Assembly: GCF_000024065.1 (NCBI RefSeq)
Contig: NC_013174.1
Coordinates: forward strand, 558,001-622,000
Direction of reading: 5' to 3'
DNA: 64,000 bases
Source: Jonesia denitrificans DSM 20603
GTDB taxonomy: Bacteria; Actinomycetota; Actinomycetes; Actinomycetales; Cellulomonadaceae
Within the stretch, counting starts at the first letter, position 1, and each line of letters begins with the position of its first letter. Below are positions 42,247-49,799 of this stretch, piece by piece. The notes under the pieces are model-generated. The model did no database searches. It was not told where the DNA came from and saw only the letters and a list, made by a program, of their open reading frames with translations. The position numbers and the translations under genes were made by a program.

Positions 42247-43257
42247 GTGACTAACGTATCCCTGGCTCTTCCGCTCGCGGATGAAAAGCTTGCCACCGCA
42301 CTCACTGAGGAGCTCCAGCACGTCGAGGAGCACCTGAGGTCGGCCACATCTCACGCGGACACTGTCGTGAATGAAGCCAGCCAACACCTTGCCAACGCTG
42401 GTGGCAAACGCCTGCGGCCGTTACTCACCCTCCTTGCTGCGCACGTGGGGCAAGGCGTGAACGATGACGTCCGGCAAGCTGCGTTGGTCGTGGAACTCAC
42501 CCACCTTGCTTCTCTCTATCATGATGACGTCATGGATTCCGCGCCGTTACGACGCGGTGCTCCTTCTGCTCATGAGGTGTGGGGAAACTCTGTTGCGATC
42601 CTCACCGGTGATCTCCTTTTCGCGCGGGCATCGCGTCTCGTGGCTAACCTTGGCCCTGAAGCAGTCCACATTCAAGCTGTGACCTTTGAGCGTCTCTGCC
42701 TGGGGCAACTCCACGAAACAATGGGTGTGCGCGACGGCGATGACCCTGTTGAACACTACATTGGGGTCCTCGCCGATAAGACAGCGTCTTTGCTGGCCAC
42801 TTCTGCTTTGCTGGGGGCGAAGTTCGCTGGCGCCGATCACGGTATTCAGCAGGCACTAGCCCGCTACGGTGAAAATGTTGGGGTTGCGTTCCAACTTGCG
42901 GATGACATCATCGATCTCACCTCTGATGGTGACGTGACCGGAAAAACGCAAGGAACTGACTTGCGTGAGCAGGTGCCCACAATGCCCGTTCTTTTGCTCC
43001 GTGCACAGGTTCTGTCCGGGCACGCGAGCCAGGACGACCGTGATCTGTTGGCATTGATTGACTCTGACCTTTCTGACGATGCAGCTCTCGCGGCGGCAGT
43101 TGAGCAGCTCAGGGCACACCGCGTCATTGAACTGACACGCCAGCGGGCAAGTGCCTATGCAGACCAAGCTGTCCGTGAATTAGACAGTCTGCCCGAAGGT
43201 CCTGTTCGGCAAGCTCTGCAGGATTTCGCCCATATTTTGGTGGAACGAACAGCGTAA
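42247..43257 (+). CDS. Polyprenyl diphosphate synthase
   Basis: Trans-prenyl chain elongation enzyme of 336 residues, probably making the menaquinone side chain for MenA. The first Asp-rich motif DDVMD is at residues 93-97 with GGKRLRP upstream; the second, DDIID, is at 219-223. The small residues before the first motif suggest a long-chain product, but chain length cannot be read reliably. GTG start. It follows nuoN by 135 bp in the same direction, tying side-chain synthesis to complex I. Confidence 0.92.
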   Translation: MTNVSLALPLADEKLATALTEELQHVEEHLRSATSHADTVVNEASQHLANAGGKRLRPLLTLLAAHVGQGVNDDVRQAALVVELTHLASLYHDDVMDSAPLRRGAPSAHEVWGNSVAILTGDLLFARASRLVANLGPEAVHIQAVTFERLCLGQLHETMGVRDGDDPVEHYIGVLADKTASLLATSALLGAKFAGADHGIQQALARYGENVGVAFQLADDIIDLTSDGDVTGKTQGTDLREQVPTMPVLLLRAQVLSGHASQDDRDLLALIDSDLSDDAALAAAVEQLRAHRVIELTRQRASAYADQAVRELDSLPEGPVRQALQDFAHILVERTA

Positions 43258-43433
43258 TCGCACCTTTTTCACCCTGTCAGGAGTGTGCTTCACTGTGGTG
43301 CTTCGTGTCAGACGGATAGGATCAGTCAAAGACGCACGTTCAGCGTGTGACGTAACTGTCGACCAGTAGTGGAAGACAGAAGACAGGTCCTCCGTATCGC
43401 GGTGGACGTAGTATGACGTAAGGGCTCAGTGAC

Positions 43434-44567
43434 GTGTTCTCGTACTCCCCGGGTGATCAGATTGCACTCGTTGTCGACCATTTTGCGGTTCTCCTACCGG
43501 GCGATACAAAAACCTCGATCATCCACACCATTTGGGAGCGCTGCTACTCCACGACACATCGCGGGTTGCTGGGTATTTTGCAAGCAGTGACCTCAGCTGT
43601 TGATCCCACGCTGGAAAATCTCCCGGATTTTGTCTTGGTGGAACGACGTGAACATGGCAGGCTCAGCGATGTTCGCATCGCTGTGAGCGGAGACGCAATT
43701 GCCCGCGTCAAGCAAACCAATGACGACGCGATTCATGAGGTATCGGGACGACACATTGCCATGTGGCTTGAACAAGGGTATTCCTCCGTGGAGTTCCTCG
43801 AAATAGGCGAACACCGCGGATCGCAGTCGTATCCCATCGTTTCGGGAGTTGTCCGTTGCTCGGGCCTGATTTGGGAGGCAGAAGTCCCCACGGGAACGTC
43901 CCCTCAATCCAGCCCACTCGCCGTGATTTCTCCACCCAGTGCGCCACTTCACACCATCGATGAGGACCTTGGTCGCACTCTCATCGAAATTCCCGATGAG
44001 TGGTTGAGTGACCACGACGTCGACGAATCACGAGCTGATTACGCCATGGACCAATCTCTCTCGCTCGATGACGTCAACGAGCAGCGAGATGACGCAGAAT
44101 ATCCACCAGCGCATCAACAAGCCGTTGAGCCCGTAGGGGCGGCAACGAGCGCAGGAACAGGGGGTGGTGGATACGCCAGCGCACCAGCCCCGTTCGCAGC
44201 AAGCGCGGCACCACCTCCCATGGTTGGAGCCGGAGTCGTACGGTTTTCCCACGGTGAGGTTGTGGAGTTGGGCAGTCCCATTGTGATCGGACGCCGCCCG
44301 TCACACGACGGTGCAGGGGCACCCGTCACCGCCCGACTAATCTCAGTTCCGAGCCCATCGAAAGACATCTCCCGCAACCACGTCATGATCCGTATCGAAG
44401 CAGGTCACGTCCTTGCTGAGGACCTTGATTCTGTCAATGGGACAGTCCTGCGCCGACGCGGTGAACCCGAGCGAACCTTGCCCGCACGCGAACCGGTACT
44501 AATCCTCAACGATGATGTTGTCGATCTAGGAGATGGCGTCTCGCTCGAGTTCATTGGGGTGAGATGA
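43434..44567 (+). CDS. FHA-domain protein with an uncharacterised N-terminal domain
   Basis: Cytoplasmic protein of 377 residues. About residues 1-155 form an alpha/beta domain I do not recognise (VVDHFAVLLPGD, TIWERCYS, VLVERREHGRLSDVRI). An acidic and Ala/Gly/Pro-rich linker follows to residue 265, and a C-terminal FHA domain covers about 270-377. The phosphothreonine-binding residues are canonical: GRRPSH near 286, SRNH near 313 and SVNGT near 335. It should read threonine phosphorylation by a Ser/Thr kinase encoded elsewhere. GTG start; the next gene holds a second, degenerate FHA domain. Confidence 0.8.
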   Translation: MFSYSPGDQIALVVDHFAVLLPGDTKTSIIHTIWERCYSTTHRGLLGILQAVTSAVDPTLENLPDFVLVERREHGRLSDVRIAVSGDAIARVKQTNDDAIHEVSGRHIAMWLEQGYSSVEFLEIGEHRGSQSYPIVSGVVRCSGLIWEAEVPTGTSPQSSPLAVISPPSAPLHTIDEDLGRTLIEIPDEWLSDHDVDESRADYAMDQSLSLDDVNEQRDDAEYPPAHQQAVEPVGAATSAGTGGGGYASAPAPFAASAAPPPMVGAGVVRFSHGEVVELGSPIVIGRRPSHDGAGAPVTARLISVPSPSKDISRNHVMIRIEAGHVLAEDLDSVNGTVLRRRGEPERTLPAREPVLILNDDVVDLGDGVSLEFIGVR

Positions 44568-44741
44568 TACTTGCCCGGTGCGCTTTATAAGGCGCATACT
44601 CATAACCGACAACTCTGGGAGATGGGGAGATCTCCGCAGAGACCGACGATATCGCGAACACGAGGGTGTTCTTCACCCGCCGGGACAGGTACAGTCATGG
44701 CCTGTACTGTCGCGCGCAACAACAACATGGGAGTCTCCACA

Positions 44742-45446
44742 ATGTCAGCACCGCAGCTGTCGCTTGAGTATTGCGGCGAGTGGTTCCAACCGAACCCCGC
44801 CCAGAACTTCGACATCGGTCGCGAAGGGGACCTCACCATCGACGACAATCCATACCTCCACCGACGCTTTTTGAAGGTGTCGTACCAGGAAGGGATTTGG
44901 TGGTTGTCGAACGTGGGGTCACTGCTTTCAGCGACTGTGTGTGACACCTCAGGCGGCGTTCAATCCTGGCTGTCGCCAGGGAACCGGATTCCCATTGTTT
45001 TCCCTTCCACCACTATTGTCTTTACCGCTGGCCCCACAACGTATGAGCTTTTGGCGCATCTTGAGGGGCAGCAGTACCAAGCCGAGCAGGTTCCTGCTCC
45101 GGAATCTGGCGACCAAACCATTGGAATGATCAACTTCACGCTTAGCCAAAAGCAACTCATCGTCGCTTTGTGCGAACCGATGTTGCGCCGTGAAGGCACA
45201 GGTTTCACCGAGATCCCATCGACTGCAGATGCGGCAAAACGCCTAGGATGGGCCGTGACGCGGTTTAACCGCAAGCTGGATAACGTTTGCGACAAACTTG
45301 ACCGGATGGGTGTGAAGGGGCTGCGAGGCGGACCAAAGCAGCTTGCCACGAACCGGCGTGCACGCCTTGTTGAGTATGCGGTCACAACCCGTCTTGTGAC
45401 GGCTGATGACCTTCCGTTACTTGATATCAAGGATGAGGAAGCCTGA
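44742..45446 (+). CDS. Degenerate FHA domain fused to a helix-turn-helix
   Basis: Protein of 234 residues. Residues 20-105 resemble an FHA fold: FDIGREGD matches the first conserved block, but the Ser-Arg-x-x-His block reads PYLHRRF and the Asn-Gly block reads LSNVGS, so phosphopeptide binding may be altered or lost. Residues about 132-200 look like a winged helix-turn-helix (LSQKQLIVALCEP, then AAKRLGWAVTRFNRKLDNVCDKL), similar in form to response-regulator output domains. ATG 44742 follows GGGAG; the frame is open upstream to 44571. The 174-bp leader holds several small inverted repeats (for example GTACAG/CTGTAC). Function unknown; a transcription factor or adaptor is inferred. Confidence 0.7.
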   Translation: MSAPQLSLEYCGEWFQPNPAQNFDIGREGDLTIDDNPYLHRRFLKVSYQEGIWWLSNVGSLLSATVCDTSGGVQSWLSPGNRIPIVFPSTTIVFTAGPTTYELLAHLEGQQYQAEQVPAPESGDQTIGMINFTLSQKQLIVALCEPMLRREGTGFTEIPSTADAAKRLGWAVTRFNRKLDNVCDKLDRMGVKGLRGGPKQLATNRRARLVEYAVTTRLVTADDLPLLDIKDEEA

Positions 45447-45464
45447 CTGTTACGGTGAGCGTTG

Positions 45465-45962
45465 ATGACGGACAATAGGGGTATGCAGCAAGCACAGTTT
45501 CCGTCACAAGCGTTCCCTGCCTATCCTCGTTTGAGTGTAAATAAACCTGATGGGTGGGTAGAACTCGCGGCGGTCGGGTTGCCCCTTGCACTTGCGGCAG
45601 AGGTGCCCGCTGGTGCTTTTCGACCGAACGTGCTTGTGACCCTGACGCGACACGGAGCAGATTTTCAGGTGGAGCACGCCGTCAAGGACCTGAATAAGCG
45701 GCTCAAGGCATTGACGCGCTTTCGGGAGGAAGAGCGGGTCACTGATCACGCACATGGCGGTGACCGCATTCGGGTACGTGGGCGTTTCGCTGGGGCTCGT
45801 GGTGAAGTGGTCCGGCAAGATGTGAGCGTTGTGGTGATAAACCGTGGACATGTGTATGACGTGGTCGAGATCACGGGTACATGTTCCCTGGCATCAGGTG
45901 ACAATAGAGAGACAGAGATCCGTTCCGTCATTGACTCGCTCGTGGTCACGTGTGACGAGTAG
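45465..45962 (+). CDS. Uncharacterised protein, possibly LpqN/Mog1-PsbP-like
   Basis: Protein of 165 residues, no signal peptide or membrane helix. The pattern of strands (GWVELAA, RPNVLVTLTRHG, RIRVRGRF, RQDVSVVVINRGHVYDVVEITGT) with a final helix carrying IRSVIDSLVV resembles the Mog1/PsbP-like fold of LpqN and DUF1795 proteins, but I cannot confirm it. TTG 45462 or ATG 45465 may start, after GGTGAG. It lies 18 bp after the FHA-HTH gene in the same direction and so is probably part of the same module. Confidence 0.55.
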   Translation: MTDNRGMQQAQFPSQAFPAYPRLSVNKPDGWVELAAVGLPLALAAEVPAGAFRPNVLVTLTRHGADFQVEHAVKDLNKRLKALTRFREEERVTDHAHGGDRIRVRGRFAGARGEVVRQDVSVVVINRGHVYDVVEITGTCSLASGDNRETEIRSVIDSLVVTCDE

Positions 45963-46118
45963 GAGCGGGCTTGGCAGGGCTTCACAAGAGGTTACAACCT
46001 CCCAAGTCCTGAACCGGACATTCCCAAACTGACAGATCCTTGTCAGGGTAGTCCTCAGCAATGAAGACATTCGCGGCGCGCATCTTTGTGCCGCCCACAA
46101 CGGAAGGCGCACATCTCC

Positions 46119-47510
46119 GTGAGCATCGATCGTCCATTACGGGTAGCTGTGGTTGGGGCTGGTCCCGCCGGTATCTACGCGTCAGACATCCTGTCAAAGA
46201 CCGACCTCAACGTGTCCATTGACCTCTTTGACCGCTTACCCGCGCCGTTTGGTTTAGTTCGTTATGGTGTTGCTCCAGATCACCCACGTATCAAGCAAAT
46301 CATTACGGCATTGCATAAGGTCCTTGACCGGGGTGATATCCGACTGTTGTCGAATGTCGACTTTGGTGTGGACCTGAAACTTGAAAACCTGCGGGAATTC
46401 TATGATGCAGTGATTTTCTCTACGGGGGCGATTAAGGATGCTGCTCTCACTATTCCTGGCATTGAGCTAGATGGCTCTTATGGTGCTGCGGACTTTGTCT
46501 CGTGGTACGACGGCCACCCTGATGTTCCTGACACGTGGCCGTTGAATGCTCAATCCATCGCAGTGTTGGGCGCCGGGAACGTTGCTCTCGATGTTGCCCG
46601 GATTCTGTCAAAGCATCCGAAAGATCTGTTAAGTACTGAGATCCCGGACAATGTCTACCAGGGACTTGTGCAAAGCCCAGTTACCGACGTGCATGTCTTT
46701 GCGCGGCGCGGCCCGGCGCAAGCGAAATTCTCACCTCTTGAGTTGCGTGAACTAGGGCACATCCCCGACGTGGATGTTGTTGTTTACCCCGAGGACTTTG
46801 AGTTTGATGAGGGGTCGATCGCAGCCATCAACTCATCCAACCAGACGAAACAGGTCGTCAAGACTCTCACCGATTGGACGTTGCGGGACCCATCGACGCT
46901 GACTGCCTCGCGCCGTCTTCACCTCCATTTCCTCCATGCTCCTCACGAGTTGGTTGACACCGATGGTGACGGGCGCGTTGATGTGCTTCGTACTGAGCGC
47001 ACCGCGTTGAACGGGGACGGGACCGTCTCGGGGACAGGCAAGATCCAGGAATGGCCGGTTCAGGCTGTCTACCGTGCTATTGGTTACTTTGGTTCTGCGC
47101 TCCCTGAGGTGCCTTATGACGACGTGCGCGGCGTGATTACCAACGCCGAGGGTCGCGTTGTGGACATCAATGGTGATCACGTTGCAGGGTTGTATTGCAC
47201 GGGGTGGATTAAGCGTGGTCCGGTGGGGCTGATCGGGCACACGAAGTCAGATGCGTCTGAGACAATCCGTCACCTTGTTGAGGATGCTGCAGACCTCGAT
47301 TCATTTGCCACAGCAACGCGCCCTGACCCGTCAGACATCACTGATTTCCTTGCTGAGCGTGGTGTGGATGTCATTGAATGGTCGGGGTGGAAGCTCTTGG
47401 ATGCGTGGGAACAAGCCTTGGGGGAAAAAGCGGGGCGTGAACGTATCAAGGTTGTTCCGCGCGCGGAACAGATTGGTATCTCGTTAGCTCGGATCACAGC
47501 TGATAGCTAG
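46119..47510 (+). CDS. Ferredoxin-NADP+ reductase, FprA/adrenodoxin-reductase type
   Basis: Two-dinucleotide-binding-domain flavoprotein that moves electrons between NADPH and a ferredoxin. The FAD loop VVGAGPAGIYASD begins at residue 11, LPAPFGLVRYGVAPDH is the adrenodoxin-reductase signature, the NADP loop LGAGNVALDVAR is near 150, and GWIKRGPVGLIGHTKSDA near the C-terminus completes FAD binding. I use GTG 46119, behind GGAAGG; GTG 46086 is an in-frame alternative. 463 residues, normal for FprA. Stands alone, followed by a good terminator. Confidence 0.93.
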   Translation: MSIDRPLRVAVVGAGPAGIYASDILSKTDLNVSIDLFDRLPAPFGLVRYGVAPDHPRIKQIITALHKVLDRGDIRLLSNVDFGVDLKLENLREFYDAVIFSTGAIKDAALTIPGIELDGSYGAADFVSWYDGHPDVPDTWPLNAQSIAVLGAGNVALDVARILSKHPKDLLSTEIPDNVYQGLVQSPVTDVHVFARRGPAQAKFSPLELRELGHIPDVDVVVYPEDFEFDEGSIAAINSSNQTKQVVKTLTDWTLRDPSTLTASRRLHLHFLHAPHELVDTDGDGRVDVLRTERTALNGDGTVSGTGKIQEWPVQAVYRAIGYFGSALPEVPYDDVRGVITNAEGRVVDINGDHVAGLYCTGWIKRGPVGLIGHTKSDASETIRHLVEDAADLDSFATATRPDPSDITDFLAERGVDVIEWSGWKLLDAWEQALGEKAGRERIKVVPRAEQIGISLARITADS

Positions 47511-48554: not shown

Positions 48555-49799
48555 GTGCGTCTCTTTGAGGTTCGGTGGCTTCCACTTGCGTTGAGTTACC
48601 TGTGTTGTGGTGTCGTGATTGCGCGTGGGCTGGGTGAACCGTGGGATGCGATGTGGCATCTGCACGCATCGCAGTGGGGCTGGCCTGGTGTGCTGCGTGA
48701 TGTGGTGACGTCATTCGTTGTGGTGTCGACCGTTGTTGCGCTGGTTGTGGCGGCGCTGGATACACGGGTGGCGGCAGGGGTGTTAGTTGTCCCTGTGTTG
48801 GCCTCTGTGTTCTCTCTTGTGGTGTCTGCGGCGTCAGCACGGTGGCTGGCCGCATTCGATGGCGCGGTGGTTGCGTCGTGGTGTGCGCTGGTTTTCCTGG
48901 TGCGTTGGCAGCAGCGGCGGCTTCGTGTGCGGTTGCGTCATGTGGTGCCAGGGGTGGCATATCCTTCGCCTGAGCTGCTTGGTGAGGTATTTGCGGCACG
49001 CCCAACGGAGCGGTGGGCTCCCTGGGTTGTGTGGGCTGCCTGGGGTGTTCCTCTCGTTGCTGCGCTGGTGAGTGTGGTCGGGCTCGTTTCCTCGGTTGAG
49101 TCCCGGCACGAGGCCGTGTGGGAGATGGCCACAGTGACTGCTGTGTCCGGTGATGTGGTCACTGTGACGCAAGCTGGTGGACGTTCGTGTGAGCTTGAAG
49201 TGTGGGATGAGCACATTGTCGGTGCTCAGGTACCCACGTTGATGGGGGAGGACGGTTGGTGTGAGATCACCACGTTGGGGGAGTATCAGGATGTGACCTG
49301 GCCGCTCGCGTTGGTGTGGCTCTTGGTTCATGTGGAGGTGGTTGTCTGGCTGCTGTGGGGGCGGTCCTGGTCTGTGGTCGATGCGGTTGTGCGCCGCGGG
49401 GTGGTGGCGCGTTATGTGGGTGGTGTGAGCCCGCTGCGGTGGGAAGGTCCGTGGGCGTTGCGGTCGGTGCCGGTGGGAACGGTGACGGTGCCGTGGTTGG
49501 TTGAAGAACTGACTGTTCCGGTGGTCCATGGTGGTGCGTTGGATGGTGGTTCTTCGCGCAGTGTTGATGTGGTTCTTCGTGTTCATCGAGTGGGATGGTC
49601 GCGTGATCTTCGCATGTTCCTTGCGGATCAGGCTGGTGCGAGTGAGGTGATGCGACAGGTTCCGCAGCAGTGGGGAAGTATCGTCGTGGTCGATCGGGCA
49701 CACCCTACCCGTGTGGTTGTGGCGTACCGGACGGGTGAAGTGTTTGTGGGGCGGATGGTTGACGCTCGGGGCTTGGTGGGGGTTGCTTCTCGTCGGTGA
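48555..49799 (+). CDS. Uncharacterised multi-helix membrane protein
   Basis: Protein of 414 residues, not assigned to a family. It has four or five hydrophobic helices in the first 200 residues, an extracytoplasmic segment with two cysteines (SCELEVWD and GWCEITT), another helix near VTWPLALVWLLVHVEVVVWL, then a soluble C-terminal part of about 140 residues. The helix-beta-helix layout is like DUF3592-type membrane proteins, an uncertain comparison. GTG start 43 bp after htpX. Strongly G- and T-rich coding strand. Confidence 0.65.
   Translation: MRLFEVRWLPLALSYLCCGVVIARGLGEPWDAMWHLHASQWGWPGVLRDVVTSFVVVSTVVALVVAALDTRVAAGVLVVPVLASVFSLVVSAASARWLAAFDGAVVASWCALVFLVRWQQRRLRVRLRHVVPGVAYPSPELLGEVFAARPTERWAPWVVWAAWGVPLVAALVSVVGLVSSVESRHEAVWEMATVTAVSGDVVTVTQAGGRSCELEVWDEHIVGAQVPTLMGEDGWCEITTLGEYQDVTWPLALVWLLVHVEVVVWLLWGRSWSVVDAVVRRGVVARYVGGVSPLRWEGPWALRSVPVGTVTVPWLVEELTVPVVHGGALDGGSSRSVDVVLRVHRVGWSRDLRMFLADQAGASEVMRQVPQQWGSIVVVDRAHPTRVVVAYRTGEVFVGRMVDARGLVGVASRR

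Follow-up and report, generated by a model that had tools for sequence, protein, structure and literature searches.

A reduced type VII secretion-like gene cluster in Jonesia denitrificans encodes a probable FHA-helix-turn-helix regulator associated with a palindromic operator

We report a three-gene locus in a 64,000-nucleotide stretch (hereafter the window) of the complete 2,749,646-bp genome of Jonesia denitrificans DSM 20603. On the forward strand, its intact open reading frames (ORFs) encode FHA1 (43434-44567), FHA-HTH (44571/44742-45446), which joins an FHA domain to a predicted helix-turn-helix (HTH), and an LpqN-domain protein (45462-45962). We consider it likely that this locus is the reduced form of a cluster resembling T7SSd, a variant of the type VII secretion system (T7SS), that FHA-HTH binds a palindrome and controls secretion and surface genes, and that FHA1 reads kinase activity. 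The reduction, the operator and the operator's association with FHA-HTH were established by comparing sequences; from them we infer DNA binding, the direction of regulation and the phospho-signal. Genomes and loci are given G and L numbers, G000 being the window genome.

We compared gene orders for 29 of 31 loci of related genomes (the other two dropped out in ORF selection) and for a set of 80 loci drawn from at least 558 relatives. In the full cluster of L044, Pfam gives the order DUF58, TgpA/transglutaminase, RDD-FHA, PP2C, FHA1, Ser/Thr kinase, FHA-HTH, FHA-FtsK ATPase (1485 residues), a WXG100-like protein (24.0 bits, below the Pfam cut-off of 27.3) and LpqN, followed by FprA and HtpX. 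Within the 80-locus set, 72 loci have at least 5.5 kb upstream; FHA1 and PP2C were each found in 69 of them and the kinase in 68, within about 3.2 kb upstream of FHA-HTH. Of the 77 loci with at least 4.6 kb downstream, 66 have the FHA-FtsK ATPase there in the same orientation. The neighborhood comparison for kinases and type VII secretion thus placed kinase, FHA-FtsK ATPase and WXG100 beside FHA-HTH in relatives, and FHA1 and FHA-HTH are kept together there (69/72 loci and 19 of 20 motif-bearing genomes). LpqN is the least constant member, and its presence in 17 of the 68 loci with at least 9 kb downstream rules it out as a constant one. Hence, the three genes, which an earlier note made from the window sequence had taken for a self-contained module, are the reduced form of a larger cluster. 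By their coordinates, genes for giant Ig/FN3-domain proteins precede the cluster in many relatives; G003, G007 and G031 have three or four such matches per genome, some about 6.2 kb apart as if in tandem.

Intermediate gene orders were also found. G019 and two Sanguibacter loci (L083, L084) have PP2C-FHA1-kinase-FHA-HTH-LpqN-FprA-HtpX with the ATPase absent, and in the window genome, G001, G013 and G016, FHA1, FHA-HTH and LpqN alone remain at the same chromosomal place. No FtsK-type FHA ATPase, WXG100, kinase or PP2C gene is present at the window locus, and when a relative's ATPase is compared with the window genome, the top match is a separate EccC-like protein that shares 31% identity across query residues 195-1223 and has no FHA part. 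Stepwise loss of cluster genes is the simplest reading of the gene orders of relatives and intermediates, and loss is the best explanation for the lack of kinase and phosphatase genes. The earlier observation that no kinase or phosphatase is adjacent holds for the window genome and does not extend to most relatives. The window genome also has a separate T7SS-like locus (L081; G000:C1:2662000-2681900) between apparent heme biosynthesis genes, which by reading of its sequence contains an EccC-like protein of 1426 residues, an EccD-like protein and two WXG100-type genes.

With the genes for ATPase, WXG100, kinase and PP2C already gone, the three that are left might be in decay and serve no function themselves. 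FHA1 fits such decay in that it has diverged faster than FHA-HTH (69% identity to G001, 34.5% to G016 and 37% to G013) and lacks the zinc-ribbon motif of most relatives. However, all three ORFs are intact, exact operators are found elsewhere in the genome, and FHA-HTH is 94%, 81% and 76% identical to its counterparts in G001, G016 and G019, where synonymous sites are saturated or nearly so. The proportion of nonsynonymous differences (pN) of FHA-HTH relative to G001 is 0.039, the lowest of eight genes (FprA 0.084, nuoM 0.153); it is likewise the lowest of seven genes relative to G016 and second to FprA relative to G019 and to G013, where just the FHA half was aligned. We regard the remnant explanation as very improbable. 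The two FHA-HTH matches in G013, considered as a gene fission, are caused by a run of N in the assembly.

The palindrome GATGGGGAGATCTCCCCATC (also written ATGGGGAGNNCTCCCCAT; about 18-20 bp) was noticed by eye upstream of the FN3 giants in full-cluster relatives. Its exact core, TGGGKAGNNCTMCCCA, is found in 109 of 396 genomes of the order, and the pattern read backwards in 9. The core is present in 107 of the 163 genomes with FHA-HTH versus 2 of the 233 without it (Fisher p = 9e-52). Since relatedness confounds this overall association, the comparison was made within genera, and we found the exact core in 56 of 76 genomes with FHA-HTH versus 1 of 67 without it in the 18 mixed genera (permutation p ≤ 5e-6). 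For example, genus g21 has 4/4 versus 0/3 and genus g33 has 5/7 versus 0/26. This test takes in all 18 mixed genera, including three without any motif, and leaving out those three alters the denominators only; the per-genus counts and genome lists were transcribed by hand from the result tables. All palindrome counts given here use a fixed consensus or pattern, and some counted genomes overlap those in which the motif was noticed.

We also read the FHA-HTH neighborhoods of 20 motif-bearing genomes (17 kb each, tblastn E ≤ 1e-4) and found FHA-HTH in 20, FHA1 in 19, PP2C in 18, kinase in 16, MoxR and DUF58 in 12 each, FN3 in 10 and the ATPase in 5. Pfam found no other DNA-binding domain in the clusters scanned, except that the RDD/FHA protein has a weak zinc-ribbon match. 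Hence, FHA-HTH, as the sole gene always present and the sole likely DNA-binding part, is the likely binder of the palindrome, and is very probably, by its sequence, a transcription regulator with a definable operator.

At the loci themselves, a palindrome matrix was trained on 8 of 16 FN3-giant upstream stretches, chosen by best match; of the remaining 8, only L186 scored well. Outside training, the 80 loci (1.54 Mb) contain 63 sites of at most 2 mismatches in 51 loci versus 0 for the reversed motif. An FtsK end was usable in 68 of the 80 loci, with at least 400 bp after the FtsK stop in 63, and in 40 of these 63 a site of at most 3 mismatches follows the ATPase stop, each about 80 bp or less from it, compared to 1/63 for the reversed motif. 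The next small ORF after the site is WXG100-like in 24 of the 40 loci (the rule gave 26, and L095 and L107 were discounted as wrong frames). Three Microbacterium loci (L133, L137, L143) have FHA-HTH without kinase, FHA1 or PP2C nearby and sites of 1-3 mismatches around.

In the window, the best match in all 64 kb is the candidate operator GATGGGGAGATCTCCGCAGA at 44621-44640 (no strand assigned), with 3 mismatches to GATGGGGAGATCTCCCCATC, where the next best match has 6. FHA1 and FHA-HTH are separated here by 174 bp, and the site is in this gap, about 100 bp ahead of the FHA-HTH ATG; a degenerate site in this position suggests autoregulation. The same FHA1/FHA-HTH gap has degenerate copies in G001 (6 mismatches) and G013 (5 mismatches) and none in G016. 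A second inverted repeat, TACAG-N7-CTGTA, was seen by eye in this gap in G000 and G001.

An alternative is that a different, unlinked regulator recognizes the palindrome, and that FHA-HTH merely co-occurs with it, maybe in a non-transcriptional role such as a scaffold. Co-occurrence is not binding, and several results weigh against our main reading. Exact matches are absent from 56 of the 163 FHA-HTH genomes, including G001, which is of the same genus as the window genome, and G013, and FHA-HTH was not detected in motif-bearing G105 and G211. FHA1 accompanies the motif almost as regularly (19/20) as FHA-HTH does. The site after FtsK is absent in 23 of the 63 loci, mostly from Arthrobacter and relatives, and the window site is imperfect. 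In the window genome, a second kinase/FN3 cluster (L037) has a best site with 6/20 mismatches and upstream just a 7-mismatch candidate, which we do not claim (the same cluster in G001 and G013 has weak upstream candidates of 5 mismatches), and the WXG100 pair of the window genome has 5-mismatch candidates at best. The HTH fold, moreover, has no match to a known structure, as the lists of fold matches in the PDB were filled by the FHA part.

However, many exact sites far from the cluster occur in genomes with FHA-HTH (e.g. G000, at 2.17 and 2.18 Mb; G019; G164; G111). In G111 (L248), none of the other cluster genes is within 8 kb of FHA-HTH, and three exact sites lie elsewhere, one of them before a WXG100-like gene. 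Genomes without FHA-HTH that carry a TsdC-like ATPase (G044, G024) or an FN3-giant gene (G006, G009, G020, G025) have no exact site. Given these results, and with FHA-HTH as the only likely DNA-binding protein of the clusters, we think an unlinked regulator unlikely and favor FHA-HTH as the binder.

The start of FHA-HTH is uncertain: the ORF opens at 44571 and homology runs from the ATG at 44742, which gives 234 residues (44742-45446), and earlier in-frame starts exist. Pfam gave no match for the window protein at E ≤ 1. In a structural model built with 49 relatives, an FHA domain spans residues 5-108 and helices span 134-149, 161-168, 172-188, 205-215 and 221-228, and the fold search gave Z scores of 13.3 to the FHA-1 domain of Rv1747 and 12.6 to the FHA domain of EmbR. 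Four PDB sequences matched the FHA-HTH profile, all with E of 0.25 or worse, and were taken as chance. Helices 161-168 and 172-188 (45222-45305) are spaced like an HTH, with mean block values of 77-90 for the predicted local distance difference test (pLDDT), and the second contains TRFNRKLDNVC. By the model and alignment, the C-terminal part is a predicted DNA-binding fold. The earlier note had called it a winged HTH, and this did not stand: the model shows residues 189-204 as coil and gives part of this stretch a pLDDT below 50, no wing is confidently predicted, and just 3 of 50 sequences match HTH_8, weakly (best E 0.02). Its three ORFs, canonical FHA1 and degenerate second FHA were borne out.

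The degenerate FHA domain of FHA-HTH (residues 1-110; 44742-45071), as seen in the alignment, model and fold search, keeps the FHA fold and an invariant GR. Residues 36-41 read N-[PL]-[YF]-L-H-R in 29/29 sequences, with no Ser/Thr at the position of the usual phosphothreonine-binding Ser and no Asn at the NGT position; these positions were placed through DD and VGS anchors, which is a reading of the alignment. Direct reading of phosphothreonine by this domain, with the three genes as a self-contained phospho-signaling module that switches transcription, would fit the union of an FHA fold and a predicted HTH in one protein, the presence of the EmbR FHA among the structural matches and the kinase that adjoins in most relatives. 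Since the domain lacks the phosphothreonine-binding residues, however, direct recognition of phosphorylation of the usual kind is unlikely, and we give this explanation little credence. The earlier suggestion that the set could convert phosphorylation into transcription was supported in its general form: FHA1 and FHA-HTH belong to a Ser/Thr kinase/phosphatase system, and FHA-HTH very probably regulates transcription through an operator that can be defined. The version in which FHA-HTH itself senses phosphothreonine was not supported.

FHA-HTH genes were found in 32 of 59 related genomes; two relatives are on plasmids and none was found among viral contigs. A distant relative (26% identity) on a Streptomyces plasmid (L171:5917-8231) is annotated as a serine/threonine kinase and stands directly before a protein kinase gene. 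The sole phage relative, 58% identical, is on an unverified faecal 'bacteriophage' scaffold (MT835585.1; L241) that is possibly bacterial DNA.

FHA1 (43434-44567) was delimited by its ORF, Pfam, an AlphaFold2 (AF2) model and a 26-sequence alignment, and has a folded N-terminal domain, a disordered linker and a canonical C-terminal FHA domain at about residues 265-376 (44226-44561). Pfam matches FHA at residues 284-366 (29.3 bits, cut-off 20.7), and a fold comparison also bears out the beta-sandwich. Residues G286, R287, S313, H316, N335, G336 and T337 are invariant in 26/26 aligned sequences and R314 is nearly so; by sequence, the phosphothreonine-binding site (GR, Ser-Arg-x-His, Asn-Gly) is thus intact, as first reported. 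The linker is modeled with pLDDT under 50 and yet keeps an island, DEDLGRTLIEIPDEWL, centered on Thr182 (43977-43979). The island and its Thr are common to the window genome, G001, G016 and G013, and by eye are looser in two Sanguibacter FHA1 proteins. This conservation makes Thr182 a candidate kinase site and FHA ligand. A zinc-ribbon-like motif, CxxGHxNPPxxxxCxxCG, precedes the FHA domain in most rows of the FHA1 alignment and is absent from the window protein, L127 and L129.

The N-terminal domain of FHA1 (residues 1-150; 43434-43883) is modeled as folded, with pLDDT block means of 79-96. Ranks 47-50 of its Foldseek matches are PP2C-type phosphatases (probability 0.99-1.00, E 0.014-0.018), and the domain may be PP2C-like, a lead from structure without sequence-profile support. 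PP2C identity by sequence profile was dropped, since hhalign against a local PP2C profile (41 of 73 PP2C sequences) gave a probability under 1%, and window FHA1 has no DGxGG motif, which holds the metal-binding Asp of PPM phosphatases. DUF6382 was rejected as the N-terminal domain, with no match in the window genome or, at E ≤ 1, in the 26 FHA1 sequences.

We counted candidate operators across the window genome and found 2 exact sites, 3 with at most 1 mismatch, 12 with at most 2 and 32 with at most 3, where 0.001, 0.05, 1.1 and 15.6 are expected, respectively, assuming independent bases at the G+C content of the window. As the reversed control gives 9 at up to 3 mismatches, these numbers imply that the weaker mismatch classes include chance matches. 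One exact site is about 290 bp upstream of an NlpC/P60 gene, and the other has HIRAN and MTES_1575 proteins as neighbors at about 180 and 440 bp; a sigma-70-family factor and FlgN are neighbors at one mismatch, and VanY and Lsr2 at two mismatches. At about 7365-7400 of L193, between MTES_1575 REase and HIRAN-domain genes, an exact operator stands within a longer perfect inverted repeat, ACATGTCCATGGGGAG-TT-CTCCCCATGGACATGT.

Similar neighbors recur in other genomes. G019 has an exact site at a WXG100-type pair and a one-mismatch site in a sigma factor/FlgN-like gap, and elsewhere sites stand in a WXG100/EccD gap, at further WXG100-like genes, at flgB-like genes and at a DtxR-NlpC locus resembling that of the window genome. 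Several neighbors are of unclear nature or have no relation to the cell surface (BCCT transporter, OsmC-like, MFS, DUF349-like, mraZ). Some sites, among them the ones that precede the sigma factor and VanY, lie within predicted ORFs; for these two genes the true start was taken as further in. Targets were assigned with a simple ORF chooser for selected sites from 5 genomes and then 16, and flgB, DtxR, the G019 genes and several WXG100-like genes were named by reading sequence, without Pfam.

Together these results are consistent with the following mechanism. FHA-HTH, presumably dimeric, would bind ATGGGGAGNNCTCCCCAT. Its targets in relatives would be the promoter of WXG100 and the operon of the Ig/FN3 giant within its cluster, together with unlinked surface genes, namely other T7SS genes, flagellar genes and NlpC/P60 hydrolases. 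A kinase would phosphorylate FHA1 or a partner, FHA1 would then read the phosphothreonine, and FHA-HTH, with its phosphate-blind FHA domain, would receive this state by docking to FHA1 or another partner. Signaling from phosphorylation to transcription is thus plausible from the sequences, with FHA1, rather than the degenerate FHA, as its more likely point of entry. The window species would have kept the regulator, FHA1 and operators outside the locus after losing the ATPase, WXG100, kinase and PP2C. Its signal could come in trans, since five Ser/Thr kinases score above the Pfam cut-off elsewhere in the window genome; one of the five belongs to a PFNA-type cluster at about 478-500 kb.

A broader proposal, which we advance tentatively, is that FHA-HTH proteins form a new family in which a phosphate-blind FHA domain couples Ser/Thr kinases to DNA by docking, with one regulon for T7SS, flagella and cell-wall hydrolases across Micrococcales, and that the regulator outlived the machine in Jonesia-like genomes. 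If true, T7SS, motility and cell-wall remodeling would be linked under one regulator in a large actinobacterial group, and the window locus would be a case of a regulator persisting after loss of its home system.

The third protein (45462-45962), described earlier as LpqN-like, matches Lpp-LpqN (PF10738) over the Pfam cut-off (24.2 bits versus 22.4) and has no lipobox, with no Cys among the first 40 ORF residues. The three ORFs, at the positions first given for them, are flanked by a polyprenyl synthase gene, which lies behind nuoLMN, and by an FprA-like reductase gene, all named by reading sequence. A sigma-70 promoter scan of 43200-46150 gave zero matches, with 1.2 expected. Elsewhere in the window, 48555-49799 encodes a predicted protein of 414 residues without a Pfam match (E ≤ 0.01), whose sole cluster partner in the compared loci is a protein of G001.

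The T7SSd gene set published by Garrett, Higginson and Palmer in 2024 (PMC11217815) comprises a kinase, an FHA-FtsK ATPase, WXG100 and an Ig-type giant, and the full cluster of the relatives resembles it, with additions. By gene content, the two share the FHA-FtsK ATPase, WXG100, the Ser/Thr kinase and the upstream Ig-type giant; the relatives add PP2C, FHA1, FHA-HTH, DUF58, transglutaminase, RDD/FHA and LpqN, whereas the window locus retains none of the T7SSd core genes. The main text of PMC11217815 does not mention helix-turn-helix, Micrococcales, Arthrobacter, Cellulo- or transglutaminase, and the sole transcription regulator in that account is the LytR-like TsiN of T7SSi. Kinases, phosphatases and FHA proteins often adjoin variant T7SS clusters, and regulation by phosphorylation has been raised as a possibility (PMC11217815); a specific regulator, an 18-20 bp operator and target promoters make this question testable. 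Our literature search, which covered few subscription journals, found no paper on the palindrome and, in titles and abstract openings of the FHA, T7SS, LpqN and EmbR literature, no description of an FHA-HTH regulator; we take the palindrome and its tie to FHA-HTH as new here.

The PFNA cluster of bifidobacteria has a kinase, an FN3 protein, AAA/MoxR, DUF58, transglutaminase and sometimes a phosphatase and FHA (PMC8430577, accessible part). This gene set is matched by the second cluster of the window genome at about 478-500 kb (L037, L070), where PP2C-FHA-kinase-Ig/FN3 giant (by Pfam) is followed by MoxR-DUF58-TGase (by tblastn) and FHA-HTH is absent. The accessible part of PMC8430577 likewise names no FHA-HTH, and the three-gene locus is about 120 kb from the PFNA-type cluster of the window genome.

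EmbR of mycobacteria is, like FHA-HTH, a kinase-linked protein with an FHA and a DNA-binding domain. In EmbR, the DNA-binding region is N-terminal and of SARP type, and the FHA domain is C-terminal. FHA-HTH differs in its N-terminal FHA, its C-terminal HTH of no Pfam family, its lost phosphothreonine residues and its target genes, and SARP-type DNA-binding and BTAD domains are absent from window FHA-HTH (Pfam E ≤ 1) and among 50 sequences. TseJ of T7SSe (PMC11217815) has, like FHA1, an N-terminal domain, here DUF6382, and a C-terminal FHA in a kinase/PPM T7SS cluster, although its DUF6382 is not matched in FHA1. A parallel to the docking proposed for FHA-HTH is the EssC/EssB FHA-pseudokinase pair of T7SSb, in which an FHA domain without a phosphothreonine site docks independently of phosphorylation (PMC11217815); the FHA domains of EssC sit on a secretion ATPase, whereas that of FHA-HTH sits on a putative DNA-binding protein.

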